From: Betaproteobacteria bacterium
GTDB lineage: Bacteria; Pseudomonadota; Gammaproteobacteria; Burkholderiales; SG8-41
DNA: 45,050 bases
Direction of reading: 5' to 3'
NCBI GenBank assembly: GCA_947476215.1
Contig: CANJQI010000018.1
Span: forward strand, 1 to 45,050
Positions 24,505 to 33,262 of this stretch are shown here, in pieces (positions within the stretch are counted from its first letter, which is position 1; each line of letters opens with the position of its first letter). The position numbers were made by a program, and so were the translations under genes. The notes beneath the pieces were generated by a model that saw only the letters and a program-made list of their open reading frames with translations, was not told where the DNA came from and did not search any database.

Positions 24505-24513
24505 TGATATGAT
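24505..24513 (+). promoter_or_regulatory. candidate extended -10 promoter
   Basis: TGATATGAT matches TGn-TATAAT with one mismatch in the hexamer and lies 44 bases before ATG 24558 of the anchored Ala/Pro-tailed protein. No clear -35 box. Seen by eye only. Confidence 0.4.
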
Positions 24514-24557
24514 TTGAACCGCTGGCTGATTAACATTCAATTTGACGGGAGGCAGGT

Positions 24558-25142
24558 ATGAGTGGCAACGTGAAAACAATAGTGATCGCCCTCGTGGCGC
24601 TGGTCGTCGGCGCGGTCGGTGGCGCGGGCTACGGCATGATGCAGGCCGATGAATTGACGCAGAAGCTGGTTGCGATGACGCAGGAAAAGGATCAGGCAGT
24701 GCAGGCAACGGATCACCTGCGCAAGATGAACGATGAGGCGGTCAGAACCTATGGCACCAACCTGGGCAAAATGGTTGCCGGTGTGCCGGCGGGTGATGAT
24801 CCCGCCAAACTCACCGACAGCGCCCGTGCGATTCTGGCGGCTCGCGACGGATTTCGCGGTTCTCTGGATGGCGCCCGCGCCGCGATGAATTCAGAGTTTG
24901 ATGAATTGGCGGCGGAACTCGGGAATTCGGCACCGAATCCGGAAAAGATCAAGCAACTGCTGGATGGACTCAAACAGAACTGGCCGGCCAAGGAAAAAGG
25001 TCTGGATGATGCGTCACGCAAGCTGCTGGTGGATCTGGGCGTGCTGAAAGGGTCGCCCGCGCCCAAGCCCGCTGCCGCGCCGGCACCTGCCGCCGCTCCC
25101 GCCGCAGCGCCACCTGCCACCGCGCCTGCCGAGAAAAAATAG
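24558..25142 (+). CDS. membrane-anchored protein with helical domain and Ala/Pro tail
   Basis: A 194-residue protein I do not recognise. Residues 8-28 form one transmembrane helix or uncleaved signal (IVIALVALVVGAVGGAGYG). Residues 30-155 are charged and largely helical with coiled-coil character (LTQKLVAMTQEKDQAVQ). The tail from about 163 is made of Ala and Pro (PAPKPAAAPAPAA) and ends in AEKK, like periplasmic linker tails. GGGAGG precedes ATG 24558. The Ala/Pro tail could span periplasm or peptidoglycan (inference). It ends before a hairpin and the convergent hydrolase gene. Confidence 0.75.
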   Translation: MSGNVKTIVIALVALVVGAVGGAGYGMMQADELTQKLVAMTQEKDQAVQATDHLRKMNDEAVRTYGTNLGKMVAGVPAGDDPAKLTDSARAILAARDGFRGSLDGARAAMNSEFDELAAELGNSAPNPEKIKQLLDGLKQNWPAKEKGLDDASRKLLVDLGVLKGSPAPKPAAAPAPAAAPAAAPPATAPAEKK

Positions 25143-25158
25143 CTTAGTAGCTACGAAG

Positions 25159-25186
25159 TCGGCGCGCGCTCGCGGTGGCGCGCCGA
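25159..25186. terminator. GC-rich hairpin between convergent genes
   Basis: Nine-base perfect stem TCGGCGCGC (25159-25167) with GCGCGCCGA (25178-25186) and a 10-base loop, placed 16 bases after the stop of the anchored protein and 34 bases past the stop of the minus-strand hydrolase. No T tract follows, so it may be a transcript-end structure rather than a classical intrinsic terminator. Confidence 0.45.
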
Positions 25187-25220
25187 TTGCATAGTCGTCA
25201 GACAATAAAGCGCGGATGCG

Positions 25221-26027
25221 TCAATTCGCGCTGCGCAGGAAGTTGAGCGTTTCCAGCGCACACCGATCCGCATCGCTGGCCGCGACATGATAGGAATCGC
25301 CGGGCAACACCAGCAGCCGGGAATTCGGAATCATTTGCTGCCATGCGCGCGTGGCCGCCGCCGAACCTAACGCGCTGCCTTCGGTGCTGATCACCAGTGT
25401 GGGGCACTGTATGCGCGGCAGGTCGCCTGAAATATCCATCTCGTTGAAAGATGCGATAAATCCGACCAGCGTCGATATGGCCGTTTGCGACATTTGCCGG
25501 ATCCACCATTCGACGCCCGCAGGTGGAAATCTACTGCCGAGCCGGCCTCCTATCGTCCTGCGTGCCCAGGACTCTACGCCTTTATTCGAGATTTCTTCAC
25601 CCCGCGCCGCATACCCCGGACCCATGGCCCGGCGTGGGCCGGGCACTCCGGCCAGCGTCAGCGTCAGCACGCGTTCGGGGCAGCGTGCCGCCATACGTCG
25701 GGCATAACTTCCGCCGAGTTTGGCGCCCACGACGTGACAGCGTTCGACGCCGAGCTTGTCCATCAATGCGAGATAGTCGTCAACAATCATGTCGGTCGAC
25801 CAGCGCAAATCGCGTGGCATGGGCGTGGACTTGCCGAAGCCGCGCATGTCGGGACGCACAAGACGAAAATGCCGCGCCAGCTGGGGCGCCCATCCGAACC
25901 ACACGCCGCCGTTTTCAGCGTTGCCGTGCAGCAGCAATATCGTCTCCGCGGTACGCCACGGATCGGTGTAGTCGTCGATCCGATAGTACATTTCCAGATC
26001 GGGCGCCAGGCGAACGGTCGGCATCAA
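25221..26027 (-). CDS. alpha/beta-fold hydrolase paralogue with Lys at the nucleophile elbow (copy A)
   Basis: A 268-residue alpha/beta-hydrolase fold protein. The oxyanion region LLLHGNAE (31-38) and the MRGFGKS segment are normal. The elbow, usually GxSxG, reads GAKLG with Lys103 at the nucleophile position; the AAA codon was checked on the DNA. The acid position is Ser218 within STEGS, with Glu216 two residues before it, and His247 (DSYHV) is kept. The classical Ser-Asp-His triad is thus lost but the fold is intact. Its start overlaps the stop of copy B by 4 bases (tandem, coupled). It is the last gene of a minus-strand operon of three Bug genes and two hydrolases. Function unknown. Confidence 0.85.
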   Translation of the reverse strand: MMPTVRLAPDLEMYYRIDDYTDPWRTAETILLLHGNAENGGVWFGWAPQLARHFRLVRPDMRGFGKSTPMPRDLRWSTDMIVDDYLALMDKLGVERCHVVGAKLGGSYARRMAARCPERVLTLTLAGVPGPRRAMGPGYAARGEEISNKGVESWARRTIGGRLGSRFPPAGVEWWIRQMSQTAISTLVGFIASFNEMDISGDLPRIQCPTLVISTEGSALGSAAATRAWQQMIPNSRLLVLPGDSYHVAASDADRCALETLNFLRSAN

Positions 26028-26851
26028 CTCACCTGGTGCAGCTGCGCAGCGGCCTGTATGAAAGCTAGCGTTTCAAGTGCGCAGCGATCGGCATCGGTTG
26101 CCGCCGCGTGAAAGGAGTCGCCCGGCAACACGAGCAGGCGGGATCGCTGGATCTGCTGTTGCCATGCGCGCGTTTCGGTGACCGAAGCAAGAGAGCTTCC
26201 TTCGGTGGTAATGACGAGGGTGGGACACTGGATTTTCGGCACGTCGGGTCTGGTGTCGGATACCGCCATGGTGGCGATGAAGTCGATCTCACTGGAGAGT
26301 GGGGTGCGCCCCATGAGTTTGGCCCACCATTCCACGCCTTCAGGTGGAAATGCGCTGCCCAGGCGTCCGGCCATGGTGCGGCGCGCCCAGCTTTCGATAC
26401 CCTGTGTTTCAAACTCGTGGGTCCATGCCGGCCCGCGTTCCGTCATGCCATCCCGATACGCAGGCGGAGCTCCGATCAGCGTCAAGGTCAGAATATTTTC
26501 CGGGTGGCGAGCTGCAAAGCAACGCGCAATCACCCCGGAGATTTTTGCACCGACCAGATGAAAACTCTCAATACCGAGTTGCCGCATAAGCGTGAGGTAA
26601 TCGTTGAGAATGATATCCACCGTCCAGTCGTAACCTCTGGGCATGGCGGTCGAGCGGCCAAAGCCGCGCATGTCGGGGCGCACAACGCGCAGATAGCGGG
26701 CAAGATGCGGGACCCATCCGAACCAGGCTGCACTGCTTTCTGCATTGCCGTGCAACAGCAATATTGCTTCGGACTCCCGCCATGGATCCGTGAAGTCGTC
26801 CAGTTCATAATGCATTTCAAGATCCGGCGAAATACGGTGGGTCGGCATCAA
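26024..26851 (-). CDS. alpha/beta-fold hydrolase paralogue with Lys at the nucleophile elbow (copy B)
   Basis: A 275-residue paralogue of copy A, sharing the start (MMPT, then PDLEM), DDxTDPWR, LLLHGNAE, VRPDMRGFG and DADRCALET. The elbow is GAKIS with Lys103 in place of serine (AAA codon). The acid position is Ser219 in TTEGS, with Glu217 near, and His248 (DSFHA) is kept. Two diverged copies keeping the same unusual residues suggests selection rather than random decay. It follows the Bug gene ending at 26927 by 75 bases. No other in-frame serine fits the elbow. Confidence 0.85.
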   Translation of the reverse strand: MMPTHRISPDLEMHYELDDFTDPWRESEAILLLHGNAESSAAWFGWVPHLARYLRVVRPDMRGFGRSTAMPRGYDWTVDIILNDYLTLMRQLGIESFHLVGAKISGVIARCFAARHPENILTLTLIGAPPAYRDGMTERGPAWTHEFETQGIESWARRTMAGRLGSAFPPEGVEWWAKLMGRTPLSSEIDFIATMAVSDTRPDVPKIQCPTLVITTEGSSLASVTETRAWQQQIQRSRLLVLPGDSFHAAATDADRCALETLAFIQAAAQLHQVS

Positions 26852-26926
26852 TAGCAGTCCATGAGAGAAAAATGTGGTTGGCGAATTCGCGCCGGGGCCA
26901 CGGGATCCACGCCGTGGCGCTGTCAG

Positions 26927-27898
26927 TTATTCGGGTTTTATCCCTGCATCGCGTATGACTTTTCCAAGGCGCGTCATTTCCGATTTGACCACAACGCCGA
27001 ACCGCTCTGGTGTGCTCGCCACGACTTCAGAGCCCGAATTAAATACGCGATCTTTTATTTCGGGGCTGTTGAATGCGCGCACGGCGGCCTGGTTCAATTG
27101 GTTGATTATCGTTGGTAGTGTTTTTGCAGGCACGAACATCCCGACGATATTTACCGATTCGTAGCCCGGCAAACCCGCGGCGGATAGTGTGGCCATGCCC
27201 GGAAACAAGTCCGAGGGATGCGCGCTGGTAATCGCGAGGGCACGCAATCGTCCGGATTTTACGTGCGGCATCACCGCTGATCCGACGCCGAACATGAGTT
27301 GCACCTGCCCGGCGATCAGGTCGTTGAATGCCGGCCCGGAACCCTTGTAGTTGATGCGTGTCAGGTTGACGCCTGCCATGGACATGAACAGTTCAGCGGC
27401 AAGATGGGGGGTGGAGCCCGAGCCGCCGGTCCCGTAATTCAGTTCTCCAGGCCTCATTTTTGCCAATGTAATCAAATCCTTGACGGAATTTGCCGCAACC
27501 GACGGATGAACTACCAGGACATTGGGAGAGGTGATCGCCAGTGTGACCGGCGAAAAATCCCGTGTTGGGTCCCAATTCAACCGTTCGTAGAAAAATGGGG
27601 CAAGCCAGAACGTAGGGCCCGCCACCAGCACCGTATAGCCGTCGGACGGCGCGCGCGCGACAATTTCGCCCAGTATGATGCCGCTGCCGCGATTATCCAC
27701 AACCAGCTGCTGAGCCAGAAATCGGGTGAGTCCTTGCGCGGCAAGTCGTGCAACAAAATCGGCGCCGCCGCCCGCTGCACTCGTGACCAGGCGTATGGGC
27801 TTGTTCGGATAATTTTGTGCCAGGGCGACATGCACGTCGTGCATGAGCGCGGAACAGAGCACAAATAGCGCAAGAAATCCTGATTTGCTCATATGCAT
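26927..27898 (-). CDS. Bug/TctC-type receptor, short-loop type
   Basis: Receptor of 323 residues with signal peptide (MHMSKSGFLALFVLCSALM..., cut after VALAQ). Short-loop marks: IRLVTSAAGGGADF, NRGSGIILGE, SDGYTVL; also INYKGSGPAFND and TPERFGVVVKSEM. A second ATG at 27892 (MSKSGF) is also possible; neither has a strong ribosome site. Third gene of the Bug-Bug-Bug-hydrolase-hydrolase operon, 50 bases behind the previous Bug gene. Confidence 0.94.
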   Translation of the reverse strand: MHMSKSGFLALFVLCSALMHDVHVALAQNYPNKPIRLVTSAAGGGADFVARLAAQGLTRFLAQQLVVDNRGSGIILGEIVARAPSDGYTVLVAGPTFWLAPFFYERLNWDPTRDFSPVTLAITSPNVLVVHPSVAANSVKDLITLAKMRPGELNYGTGGSGSTPHLAAELFMSMAGVNLTRINYKGSGPAFNDLIAGQVQLMFGVGSAVMPHVKSGRLRALAITSAHPSDLFPGMATLSAAGLPGYESVNIVGMFVPAKTLPTIINQLNQAAVRAFNSPEIKDRVFNSGSEVVASTPERFGVVVKSEMTRLGKVIRDAGIKPE

Positions 27899-27948
27899 GT
27901 CGATTTCGGTGCTCGTCCTGGTTGCCTGCAGGTATTCATATAAGGGCT

Positions 27949-28941
27949 CTAATCGACCTTGATGCCCGCACTCTTGATGAGTTTGGCCATCCGGGTCATT
28001 TCCGATTTTATGGTTGCCGCGAATTCCGCCGGGGAACTTGCGACAACTTCAACGCCTACATTGAGGTAATGTTCTTTCGCCTTTGGTGTTTTGAGAAACT
28101 GTACGACTTCCTGGTTGAGGCGGCTGATAACGGCTTCAGGCGTCCTGGCCGGCGCAAAGATGCCGTAGGTCGATACCGACTCATATCCTGGCAAGCCGGA
28201 TTCCGCCACGGTCGGCAGGTCAGGATTGAGTGCGAATGGTTTTGCCCCGGTCACTGCAAGGGCCAGCAATCGACGCGACTTGATATGCGCCGCAGCAGAG
28301 CCCGAACTGCTGAACATGAAATGCACGCGGCCGCCGAGTACATCATTGAGCCCCTGTGCAGTGCCTTTGTACGGTACGCCCACCATGTTGACCCCGGCCA
28401 TGTACTTAAAGAGTTCGGTGGCGCGGTGTGACGACGAGCCCGCCGCGTTGACGGCATAGTTGAGCTCGCCCGGTTTGGCCTTGGCCAGCGCGATCAATTC
28501 CGTGACAGATTTTGCCGGAAGATTCGGATGAACCACCAGAATGTTGGGTGAATTTACCGCTGCCGTTACTGGTGAAAAATCACGCACTGGATCCCATGGT
28601 GTTTTTTCAAGCAGCGGCATTATCCAGTGGACGTCACTGATGAAAAGCAGGGTATAACCATCGGGCGGCGCTTTGGACACGATCTGCCCTTGAATAACGC
28701 CGGTGGGCCTGTTTTCAACGACGAGCGGCTGACCTAGACTGCCGGCTATTCCTTGCGTGATAACACGCGTCAGAAAATCAGCGCCACCGCCAGCTTCGGA
28801 AGTAACGATGCGCAGGGGCTTGCTGGGGAAGTTCTGCGCAGATACTACGCCCACGCAGACGACTATCAGGCCACCTGACAACATTGCTGCAATTGGTTTC
28901 GGCAATCTCATGGCCGTGCCTCTGAAACTAACGTAATTCAT
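27949..28941 (-). CDS. Bug/TctC-type receptor, short-loop type
   Basis: Receptor of 330 residues. The signal peptide is MRLPKPIAAMLSGGLIVVC..., cut after VSAQ; ATG 28911 begins it directly and has AGAGG 7 bases upstream, while ATG 28941 adds ten residues and has AAGGA. Either is possible. Marks: LRIVTSEAGGGADF, NRPTGVIQGQ, PDGYTLL, VPYKGTAQGLND, SPAEFAATIKSEM. It follows the first Bug gene of the operon by 41 bases. Confidence 0.94.
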   Translation of the reverse strand: MNYVSFRGTAMRLPKPIAAMLSGGLIVVCVGVVSAQNFPSKPLRIVTSEAGGGADFLTRVITQGIAGSLGQPLVVENRPTGVIQGQIVSKAPPDGYTLLFISDVHWIMPLLEKTPWDPVRDFSPVTAAVNSPNILVVHPNLPAKSVTELIALAKAKPGELNYAVNAAGSSSHRATELFKYMAGVNMVGVPYKGTAQGLNDVLGGRVHFMFSSSGSAAAHIKSRRLLALAVTGAKPFALNPDLPTVAESGLPGYESVSTYGIFAPARTPEAVISRLNQEVVQFLKTPKAKEHYLNVGVEVVASSPAEFAATIKSEMTRMAKLIKSAGIKVD

Positions 28942-28982
28942 ATTCTGGATTCCTTTGCCGCGGGCGACTTCGGATGGTTGCG

Positions 28983-29966
28983 CTATTCGGCCTTCGCCCC
29001 GGTCAGCTTGATCAACTCGAAATTCCGTGCGATTTCGAGCTTGATATATCCCGCAAATTGTTCCGGGGTGTTGGTTTGCGGTTCTATCCCCTGACTATTG
29101 AACGATTTCTTTGCCTCCGGGGTGCTGATGCCCTTGCGGATTACGGCATTCAGCCGCGCGACGATGTCTTTTGACAGTCCTGCCGGTGCGATTACGCCAT
29201 ACCAGGAGGAGCGGTCATATCCGCTCAGCCCCGACTCATCGATGGTCGGCATCTGCGGTATCAGCGACGAGCGCTTCGCGCCGGTAATCGCGATGGCCTG
29301 GAGTTTGCCTGCATCCAGCAAAGGTGCTGCTGACGCGAGGCTGGGGAAATTCATCTCGATCTGGCCGCTGGCGTTTGCGACGGAACTCTCCGCTGCGCCC
29401 TTGTATGGAACATGGACGATCTTCACCTTGGCCATTAAATTGAAGAGTTCTCCCATAAGGTGCGCCGAACTGCCAATGCCGGGAGATCCGAAGTTGAGTT
29501 TGCCTGGCTTTGCCCGCGCCAGCGCAATCAGGTCTTTGACGTTGCGCGCCGGCACCGATGGATGCACGGTAAGAAGGGTCGTGCCGGTGGCAACCATGGA
29601 TACCGGTGCAAAATCATTTCCCAGGTCGTAGGGAAGTTTTGGCCGCAATGCCGGCTGCACCGTGTCTCCGGCCGCCATCATCAGCAGCGTGTGGCCGTCC
29701 GGCGGTGACTTGGCAACCGCCTCGGTCGCCACTGATCCGCCCGCGCCGACCCGGTTCTCGACAATTACAGGTTGCCCCAGATTCTCCGCCAGGATAGTCG
29801 CAGTCAGCCGCGCAGCGACATCGCTGGCGCTGCCCACGGTCAATCCCACAAGCATGCGTATCGGTTTAGTCGGGTAGTTTTGGGCGGACGAGTCCAAGGC
29901 TGTCAGGGTCGCGCACGCGGTGACTATCGCAAAGTACCCCATTGCCATACGTTCTGGTTTCCGCAT
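28983..29966 (-). CDS. Bug/TctC-type periplasmic solute receptor
   Basis: Receptor of 327 residues with signal peptide (MRKPERMAMGYFAIVTAC..., cut after SSAQ). It has the canonical loop NRVGAGGSVA, but the first ligand loop is altered: MLVGLTVGSASD in place of VPxxPGGxxD, so the double glycine is lost. Other marks: PDGHTLL, VPYKGAAESSVA, TPEQFAGYIKLEI. First gene of the minus-strand five-gene operon, divergent from the Bug gene at 30180 across a 213-base gap that must hold both promoters. Confidence 0.94.
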   Translation of the reverse strand: MRKPERMAMGYFAIVTACATLTALDSSAQNYPTKPIRMLVGLTVGSASDVAARLTATILAENLGQPVIVENRVGAGGSVATEAVAKSPPDGHTLLMMAAGDTVQPALRPKLPYDLGNDFAPVSMVATGTTLLTVHPSVPARNVKDLIALARAKPGKLNFGSPGIGSSAHLMGELFNLMAKVKIVHVPYKGAAESSVANASGQIEMNFPSLASAAPLLDAGKLQAIAITGAKRSSLIPQMPTIDESGLSGYDRSSWYGVIAPAGLSKDIVARLNAVIRKGISTPEAKKSFNSQGIEPQTNTPEQFAGYIKLEIARNFELIKLTGAKAE

Positions 29967-32290: not shown

Positions 32291-32860
32291 CATATCGAGC
32301 CCGATGTGTCATACCACGGCGTTGTCTATACCGAAGCGCTGGGGCCCGCCGCTTACATAGGCCGTGCGCGCGTGGTGCCGCTGCGGAACATGGGGCCGGC
32401 GATCAGTCCGTTCAATGCATTTCTTATCCTGCAGGGAATCGAAACTGTCGCCCTGCGCATGGACCGCATCTGCGACAATGCGCTCAAGGTCGCGCAATTC
32501 CTCGGCAAACACCCGAAGGTGAATTGGGTCAACTACGCGTGCCTGCCCGATCATAAGGACCACGCTGTGGTGGCGCGTTACATGGGCGGGCGTGCTTCGG
32601 GCATACTGACTTTCGGTATCAAGGGTGGGCGCGAGGGTGGCGCGAGATTTCAGGATGCGTTGCAGTTGGTGGTGCGCCTGGTCAACATCGGTGATTGCAA
32701 ATCGCTGGCATGTCATCCGGCGTCTACGACGCACCGGCAACTGTCGCCGGAGGAACTCGCCAGGTCTGGTGTCAGCGAGGAAATGGTGCGATTGTCCATT
32801 GGCATCGAGCATATCGACGATATCATTGCGGATCTCGACCAGTCGCTGGCGCACGTCTAG
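32291..32860 (+). pseudogene. metY: metY 3' fragment (O-acetylhomoserine sulfhydrylase C-terminal part)
   Basis: About 190 residues that match the last 40-45 percent of O-acetyl-L-homoserine aminocarboxypropyltransferase: SYHGVVYTEALGPAAY, PLRNMGPAISPFNAFL, GGRASGILTFGIKGG, SLACHPASTTHRQLS and SIGIEHIDDIIADL. The N-terminal part with the PLP-binding lysine is absent; full enzymes have about 430 residues. Family-like sequence begins near base 32291 (HIEPD) and what lies before (32225-32290) is not coding for the missing part. The remaining frame is clean, so the truncation may be recent. It lies directly behind a Bug gene. Confidence 0.88.
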
Positions 32861-32923
32861 TTTTCGGGCGCTGCAGGGCAGCATATGAAGCTGGTTCGAT
32901 GTTTGGGTTGCCGGGAGAAAAGC

Positions 32924-33262
32924 ATGCGGCAGCTGAATTCTGTAACGCGTGGACTCTGTGCCTGTGTTCTTGGGCTCGCTTGCGGAAAGGTATTCCCGCA
33001 AGCCACCTCGCCAGGTACAGGGCAGGATTACCCGACCAGAATCATACGACTGCTGGCGATAGAGGCCGCCGGTGGAACGGACTTCGTGGCGCGCCAGATT
33101 GCGCAAGGTATTTCCGATGCGCTGGGGCATCAGGTGGTCGTCGACAATCGCGCCAATCTGGTGGCGCAATTGCTTGCGCAGGCGTTACCAGACGGTTACA
33201 CGCTGGCGCTACTCGGCCCTCCAGTGTGGATTTCGCCGCTGCTGCAACCGCGTTTCCATTAG
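32924..33262 (+). pseudogene. Bug receptor gene, 3'-truncated, short-loop type
   Basis: 112 residues: a signal peptide (MRQLNSVTRGLCACVLGLAC, then GKVFPQ), LLAIEAAGGTDF, NRANLVAQLL, PDGYTLALLG and SPLLQPRFH, then a stop where relatives continue with YDPxxDF. About two thirds of the receptor is missing. ATG 32924 has GGGAGA upstream and starts the signal peptide; ATG 32885 is possible too. The missing C-terminal part is not found nearby. An exported remnant of about 85 residues could still be made, but could not form the cleft. Confidence 0.88.

Follow-up and report, generated by a model that had tools for sequence, protein, structure and literature searches.

A family of alpha/beta-hydrolase-fold proteins with lysine at the nucleophile elbow

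In proteins of the alpha/beta-hydrolase fold the apex of the nucleophile elbow is, to my knowledge, generally occupied by serine, aspartate or cysteine, with alanine or glycine in members that act non-covalently. The 3-oxoadipate enol-lactonase PcaD, for instance, works by a serine triad. I describe here a family of this fold in which lysine holds this position, and which includes two tandem genes in a 45,050-nucleotide stretch of DNA from a Betaproteobacteria bacterium (the window; assembly GCA_947476215.1, contig CANJQI010000018.1, positions 1 to 45,050), contig 18 of a 5.75 Mb draft genome.

The fold also includes the plant hormone receptors D14 and KAI2, and the tomato methylketone synthase MKS1, whose elbow holds no lysine. 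MKS1 is described in PMC10548524 as having this fold but not the canonical triad; it retains the histidine as a base and decarboxylates beta-keto acids. The same source describes the cofactor-free dioxygenases HOD/QDO, in which the elbow residue is not essential as a nucleophile and the histidine does the proton work. In the epoxide hydrolase StEH1, an aspartate forms an ester intermediate that is hydrolysed by water, and Glu35 is given an auxiliary role in catalysis (PMC5929373). No paper on a lysine elbow in this fold was found by title or abstract start in the open-licence literature, and a word search for lysine or Lys gave no match in the accessible part of PMC7034887, a study covering 40 families of the fold.

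The Lys-elbow family

The two genes lie on the reverse strand, copy 1 at 25221-26024 (267 amino acids from ATG) and copy 2 at 26024-26848 (274 amino acids from ATG), and their products are 60% identical. Both elbows read Gly-Ala-Lys, and the AAA codons claimed for this lysine in the original prediction, which was made from the window's sequence, were found in the DNA (25719-25721 in copy 1, 26543-26545 in copy 2). Both open reading frames given there (25221-26027 and 26024-26851) also stand, although their TTG starts are probably one codon too early: at the head of each gene stands TTGATG, and the methionine is where the family's proteins start, which makes the ATG the likelier start. Residue numbers 103, 38 and 247 are kept here from the copy 1 frame of that prediction; counted from the ATG, the lysine is residue 102. 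The stop codon of copy 2 and the start codon of copy 1 share one base (TGATG), a sign of translational coupling.

Membership of the fold is clear from the PF00561 scores of the two copies, 93.2 and 83.3 bits against a cut-off of 25.8. AlphaFold2 models were obtained with a mean predicted local distance difference test score of 94.3 for copy 1 and 95.2 for copy 2. In both, the lysine and no other residue is predicted at the apex of the strand-turn-helix motif, as had been proposed, between strand 97-102 and a helix from 104 in copy 1, and between strand 96-101 and a helix from 103 in copy 2 (numbered from ATG). The nearest solved fold is that of PcaD from Burkholderia xenovorans (2xua; Z 34.0, root-mean-square deviation 1.9, 257 aligned, 23% identity; VIA), which is common to both proteins over nearly their whole length. 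PcaD is also the best NCBIfam match for both copies, yet scores of 76.2 and 58.9 bits lie far below the TIGR02427 equivalog cut-off of 255.85, and in contrast to it the family has the lysine elbow and lacks the canonical acid. D14/KAI2 are among the fold matches. Profile and single-sequence searches found no close relative among solved structures, the best matches being 4q3l (profile, E 8.7e-24) and 3om8 (single sequence, E 1.4e-18), and the matches listed from a viral structure library were only generic hydrolases or nameless entries.

A first set of 70 homologues from 15 genomes of the genus had lysine at the elbow in 53 sequences, serine in 16 and glutamine in one. The family was then delimited at 250 bits against a profile built from Lys rows only. 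Counting excluded sequences shorter than 200 residues (190 residues for the final count) and duplicates nested within other sequences, and from the genome searches part of the listed matches were fetched as sequences. At or above this cut-off stand 177 members, 171 with lysine and six with glutamine at the elbow, and none with serine or aspartate. Given the 60% identity of the two window copies and these counts, lysine in both of them is not a matter of chance, and the observation extends far beyond the two window genes to a whole family. Serine hydrolysis, which the original prediction had held impossible, is excluded by the sequence, because an acyl-enzyme cannot form on a serine that is not there. 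Homologues with serine, which would have spoken for mere decay, are absent from the family and occur in sister families.

These sister families, represented by 29 relatives at 120-250 bits against the family profile, carry serine or threonine at the elbow; they are the hydrolases of the same genomes nearest by score (elbows such as GESFGG, GNSAGG and GETIGG), of which the Ser types have likewise been amplified in the home genome. An earlier set contained no sequence between 250 and 290 bits, and its group at 180-250 bits (n=15) consisted of 12 Ser and three Thr sequences. Among the later finds is a deep-branching member at 268.7 bits (L304) with the complete Glu-Lys-His set described below; this locus and five others entered only the final count of 177 and are in no tree. 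At the same locus (L304:1437-3101, genome G1125, from the phylum of a Rokubacteria member) lies an overlapping alpha/beta-hydrolase frame with the elbow VMAEFSSS, which places a glutamate at the nucleophile position.

In a tree computed with positions 38, 101-104 and 247 masked, 47 Lys and Gln rows separate from 28 Ser/Thr relatives with support of 99/97 (bootstrap/Shimodaira-Hasegawa approximate likelihood-ratio test), and the Gln rows form a single clade (100/100). The tree is unrooted, and two long-branch rows flagged in an earlier tree were left out of it. The simplest reading of these sequences is a single change to lysine, followed by a single change from lysine to glutamine.

Within the family the lysine is kept by selection. 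The 166 Lys rows of the alignment have a mean pairwise identity of 53% (lowest 34% in 3000 sampled pairs) and share 13 invariant columns: W24, H34, G35, E38, P48, D60, G63, H98, K103, R162, G164, W175 and H247. Both lysine codons are in use at position 103 (AAG 100, AAA 66), and the median ratio of nonsynonymous to synonymous substitution rates (dN/dS) is 0.12 over 412 Lys pairs at 80-98% identity. Invariance at such divergence, the two codons and the low dN/dS argue for a selected trait and not for decay, as had been suggested from the two copies. Full-length Lys copies number 12 in the home genome, where a truncated copy with an internal TGA also lies (G000:C87:259-480).

Across genomes, matches were found, at E-value limits that were not uniform across the searches, in 64 of the 74 home-family genomes, in 19 of 300 sampled from the order (seven of them in the home family) and in one of 398 from the phylum, which was the home genome. 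In the class of an alphaproteobacterial member one of 289 sampled genomes matched, that member's own, and in the phylum of a Rokubacteria member 10 of 95 did. A scan of named-genome contigs, which favours lysine as one of its three patterns held the Lys motif, listed at least 80 loci, of which 79 are titled as metagenome-assembled genomes (MAGs) or uncultured and the other (L141) is a betaproteobacterial isolate record. Two titles, Bordetella parapertussis and Chitinophaga pinensis, are probably mislabelled MAGs, and no named cultured species with a family member was seen in the collections searched. A plasmid search returned six records, all at or below 31.4% identity; L214, the one looked into, has Ser-type genes.

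Glu38, His247 and the acid position

A second residue accompanies the lysine, which the original prediction had not seen. In the model, position 38 belongs to the HGxxE loop that follows strand 3. Each of the 168 Lys rows reaching this position has glutamate there (three fragments lack the position); the codon is GAA in both window genes (25914-25916 in copy 1, 26738-26740 in copy 2, reverse strand). In the 29 Ser/Thr relatives the position is R, K, G, S or A and never glutamate, and in the six Gln rows it is glutamine. When the 33 columns with 97% or more conservation among Lys rows are compared, 38 and 103 alone differ in every one of the six Gln rows. Since both positions turned to glutamine in the only subclade that lost the lysine, Lys103 and Glu38 are probably one unit, and probably act as a pair beside His247. 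I take the loop that holds Glu35 in StEH1 to be the equivalent of this one. The fluoroacetate dehalogenases 1y37 and 3b12, which also have a non-Ser elbow (the aspartate of 1y37 aligns with Lys103), have glutamine at position 38.

The histidine after strand 8 is retained: His247 is present in all 171 Lys rows and in five of the six Gln rows, the exception being L033, and its codon is CAT at 25287-25289 in copy 1, with CAC at 26108-26110 for the corresponding residue of copy 2. The acid after strand 7 is missing, as had been claimed for the two copies. Position 218, where it should stand, is serine in 143 of 166 Lys rows (in copy 1 an AGC codon at 25374-25376), and the six commonest states there, none of them aspartate or glutamate, cover 165 of the 166. 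The alignment thus indicates that the canonical acid is gone from this position; a substitute might be supplied from elsewhere in the protein.

Compared with the criteria for a serine hydrolase, the family therefore keeps the histidine and lacks both the serine (0/177) and the acid. The aspartate at the elbow that defines the dehalogenases and epoxide hydrolases is likewise absent (0/177), and whereas their aspartate gives an ester intermediate, a lysine cannot. Judged by sequence, the proteins appear to form a distinct alpha/beta-hydrolase family, in which a putative active-site set Lys103-Glu38-His247 replaces Ser-Asp-His.

Candidate chemistry and its rivals

I tentatively favour, at somewhat less than even confidence, a non-hydrolytic enzyme of carbonyl acids, a lyase or decarboxylase, in which Lys103 would serve as an electrostatic partner. 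Lys103 at the elbow apex and Glu38 in the loop after strand 3, in the place of the oxyanion hole, would be in contact in the pocket, and the pair would bind and polarise a carbonyl or carboxylate of the substrate, with His247 moving a proton as acid/base. Lacking a nucleophile for an acyl-enzyme, such a site might carry out decarboxylation, retro-aldol or retro-Claisen cleavage, or enolisation of carbonyl acids. A retained histidine next to a Lys-Glu pair would fit proton transfer and polarisation of the kind described in PMC10548524 for the MKS1 decarboxylase and the HOD dioxygenase. MKS1, a plant enzyme likened here by that description, shares the fold, the lost triad and the retained histidine; HOD/QDO differ in having serine or alanine at the elbow and in keeping the acid partner of the histidine (same source). 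Members stand in different catabolic clusters and probably have different substrates.

Several observations, together with the ligand-binding alternative set out below, weigh against this proposal. The Lys-Glu contact is deduced from covariation and homology and not from coordinates, and the covariation amounts to two joint events only, the gain of the pair and its later change to glutamine. Columns 35 and 209 are also altered in four of the six Gln rows, which means that this subclade changed elsewhere too. Its purifying selection implies that its members do something without the lysine. The gene neighbourhood names no substrate, as neighbours vary by locus and MmgE/PrpD genes, for one, stand at random background (0.29 both at Lys loci and at points drawn at random from the home genome, 0.47 near the Bug receptor genes discussed below).

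The six Gln38-Gln103 sequences themselves (L033 and L270-L274) are intact and under purifying selection, with a median dN/dS of 0.15 over 14 usable pairs of 15.

Class I aldolases and acetoacetate decarboxylase work through a lysine imine, and the same could be imagined here: a deprotonated Lys103 would condense with a keto or aldehyde substrate to an imine, with Glu38 and His247 shuttling protons. The family would then represent a class I lyase or aldolase that arose independently on the scaffold of a hydrolase, its many paralogues handling different carbonyl acids. An invariant lysine where the fold is most reactive, close to a glutamate and a histidine, is what this explanation would predict, and one locus (L110) has an adjoining gene of the Schiff-base DapA family, a mark of keto-acid metabolism there. 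However, an adjacent glutamate raises the lysine pKa, and Glu38 may favour a protonated lysine no less than a nucleophilic one; the Gln-Gln subclade, moreover, retains the shape of the pair without an amine and is still selected. I therefore regard this imine chemistry as unlikely, if far from negligible, and Schiff-base formation by Lys103 itself as unlikely to the same degree.

Somewhat more doubtful is a hydrolase without a covalent nucleophile, in which His247 and Glu38 would activate water directly onto an ester, lactone or amide and Lys103 would stabilise the oxyanion. In StEH1, the hydrolytic water sits between Glu35 and His300. Glu35 and this water are also named together in PMC5929373, and the presence of His247 in every Lys row and of a lactonase as the nearest fold would agree with such a mechanism. 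The histidine would nevertheless have to work without its acid partner, and the lysine would fill the place of the attacked carbonyl. I know of no precedent for a direct-water hydrolase of this kind, which counts against it.

It is improbable that the proteins are non-catalytic sensors or carriers, in which Lys103 would hold a metabolite carboxylate by charge and the pocket would be kept for binding. The loss of both nucleophile and acid, the selection acting on the Gln-Gln subclade and the precedent of D14/KAI2 in this fold all speak for binding; yet His247, needless for that purpose, is invariant in the Lys rows, a lysine ligand would not require an invariant glutamate alongside, and the many paralogues in catabolic clusters look enzymatic. 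That these are pseudoenzymes being lost is scarcely credible and, like an artefact, was rejected: one truncated copy with a stop (G000:C87) stands against lysine in 171 of 177 members, the use of both codons, a dN/dS of about 0.12 and 12 full-length copies in one genome.

Genomic context and implications

Directly upstream of the hydrolase pair and on the same strand lie three genes for Bug (TctC) solute receptors (PF03401), at 26927-27898, 27949-28941 and 28983-29966, the last likely the first gene of the operon. The intergenic gaps are short (41, 50 and about 75 bp), and with this arrangement a single operon for the Bug genes and both hydrolases is plausible. Further along the window, a C-terminal piece of a Cys/Met-metabolism pyridoxal-phosphate enzyme (32306-32857; profile positions 227-380 of 381), probably a gene remnant, is followed by a short Bug-like open reading frame (ORF) at 32885-33262.

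The original prediction had seen in this linkage a ligand-processing unit of a new type. Bug genes, however, are dense in this genome: 20 stretches totalling 400 kb (L249-L268) contain 53 Bug ORFs, and a random point has one within 3 kb in 49% of cases. This density extrapolates to roughly 760 receptor ORFs in the home genome. A Bug gene lies within 3 kb of 35 of 48 Lys loci (0.73), a rate equal to that around Bug genes themselves (0.73), against 0.47 for random points, and Ser-type loci have one in five of five cases. A cruder count with a simple gene caller found one near 30 of 49 loci, and a direct profile search of other genomes near 54 of 60 other loci and two of two untitled ones; the background comes from the home genome alone, and the 54/60 has none of its own. 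No Bug gene lies within 3 kb of four Rokubacteria-titled and three Alphaproteobacteria/Acetobacteraceae-titled loci; one of the Rokubacteria loci (L124) has an ATP-binding cassette transporter that includes an SBP_bac_5 receptor and is encoded divergently from the Lys gene. The unit as proposed, and with it the expectation that homologues would sit beside Bug genes across the family, did not hold up, and Bug linkage was rejected as a defining family trait. In the home genome nine of nine Lys genes (eight loci) have a Bug gene within 3 kb, compared with the random rate of 49%, which amounts to mild local enrichment. The link between Bug receptors and the Lys enzymes is weak, and in the window it is not specific.

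Other neighbours across the loci include SDR, MmgE/PrpD, enolase-superfamily, DapA-type, TauD, luciferase-like, Meth_synt_2, TPP-enzyme and amidohydrolase genes, which point to catabolism in general and to no single pathway. SDR genes are found near nine of 48 Lys loci against a background of 0.05, and Meth_synt_2 genes near eight of 48, while the 20 background stretches contain none. As that background comes from one genome and related loci repeat, nothing is built on these enrichments. The Meth_synt_2 genes (PF01717), single-domain and similar to cobalamin-independent methionine synthase, recur beside Lys members (L126, L134, L144, L161, L166, L168 and others), and their cluster occurs in 11 loci.

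For annotation the family is a warning, as its proteins pass the Pfam hydrolase cut-off and would be named hydrolases, 12 times in the home genome alone. A selected lysine of single origin, coupled to a glutamate, would add a further elbow chemistry to this fold. The family may also be viewed as a natural experiment in the fold's departure from hydrolysis, with the Gln-Gln subclade as a built-in control. It probably does a job other than ester cutting, and which job that is makes a testable question.

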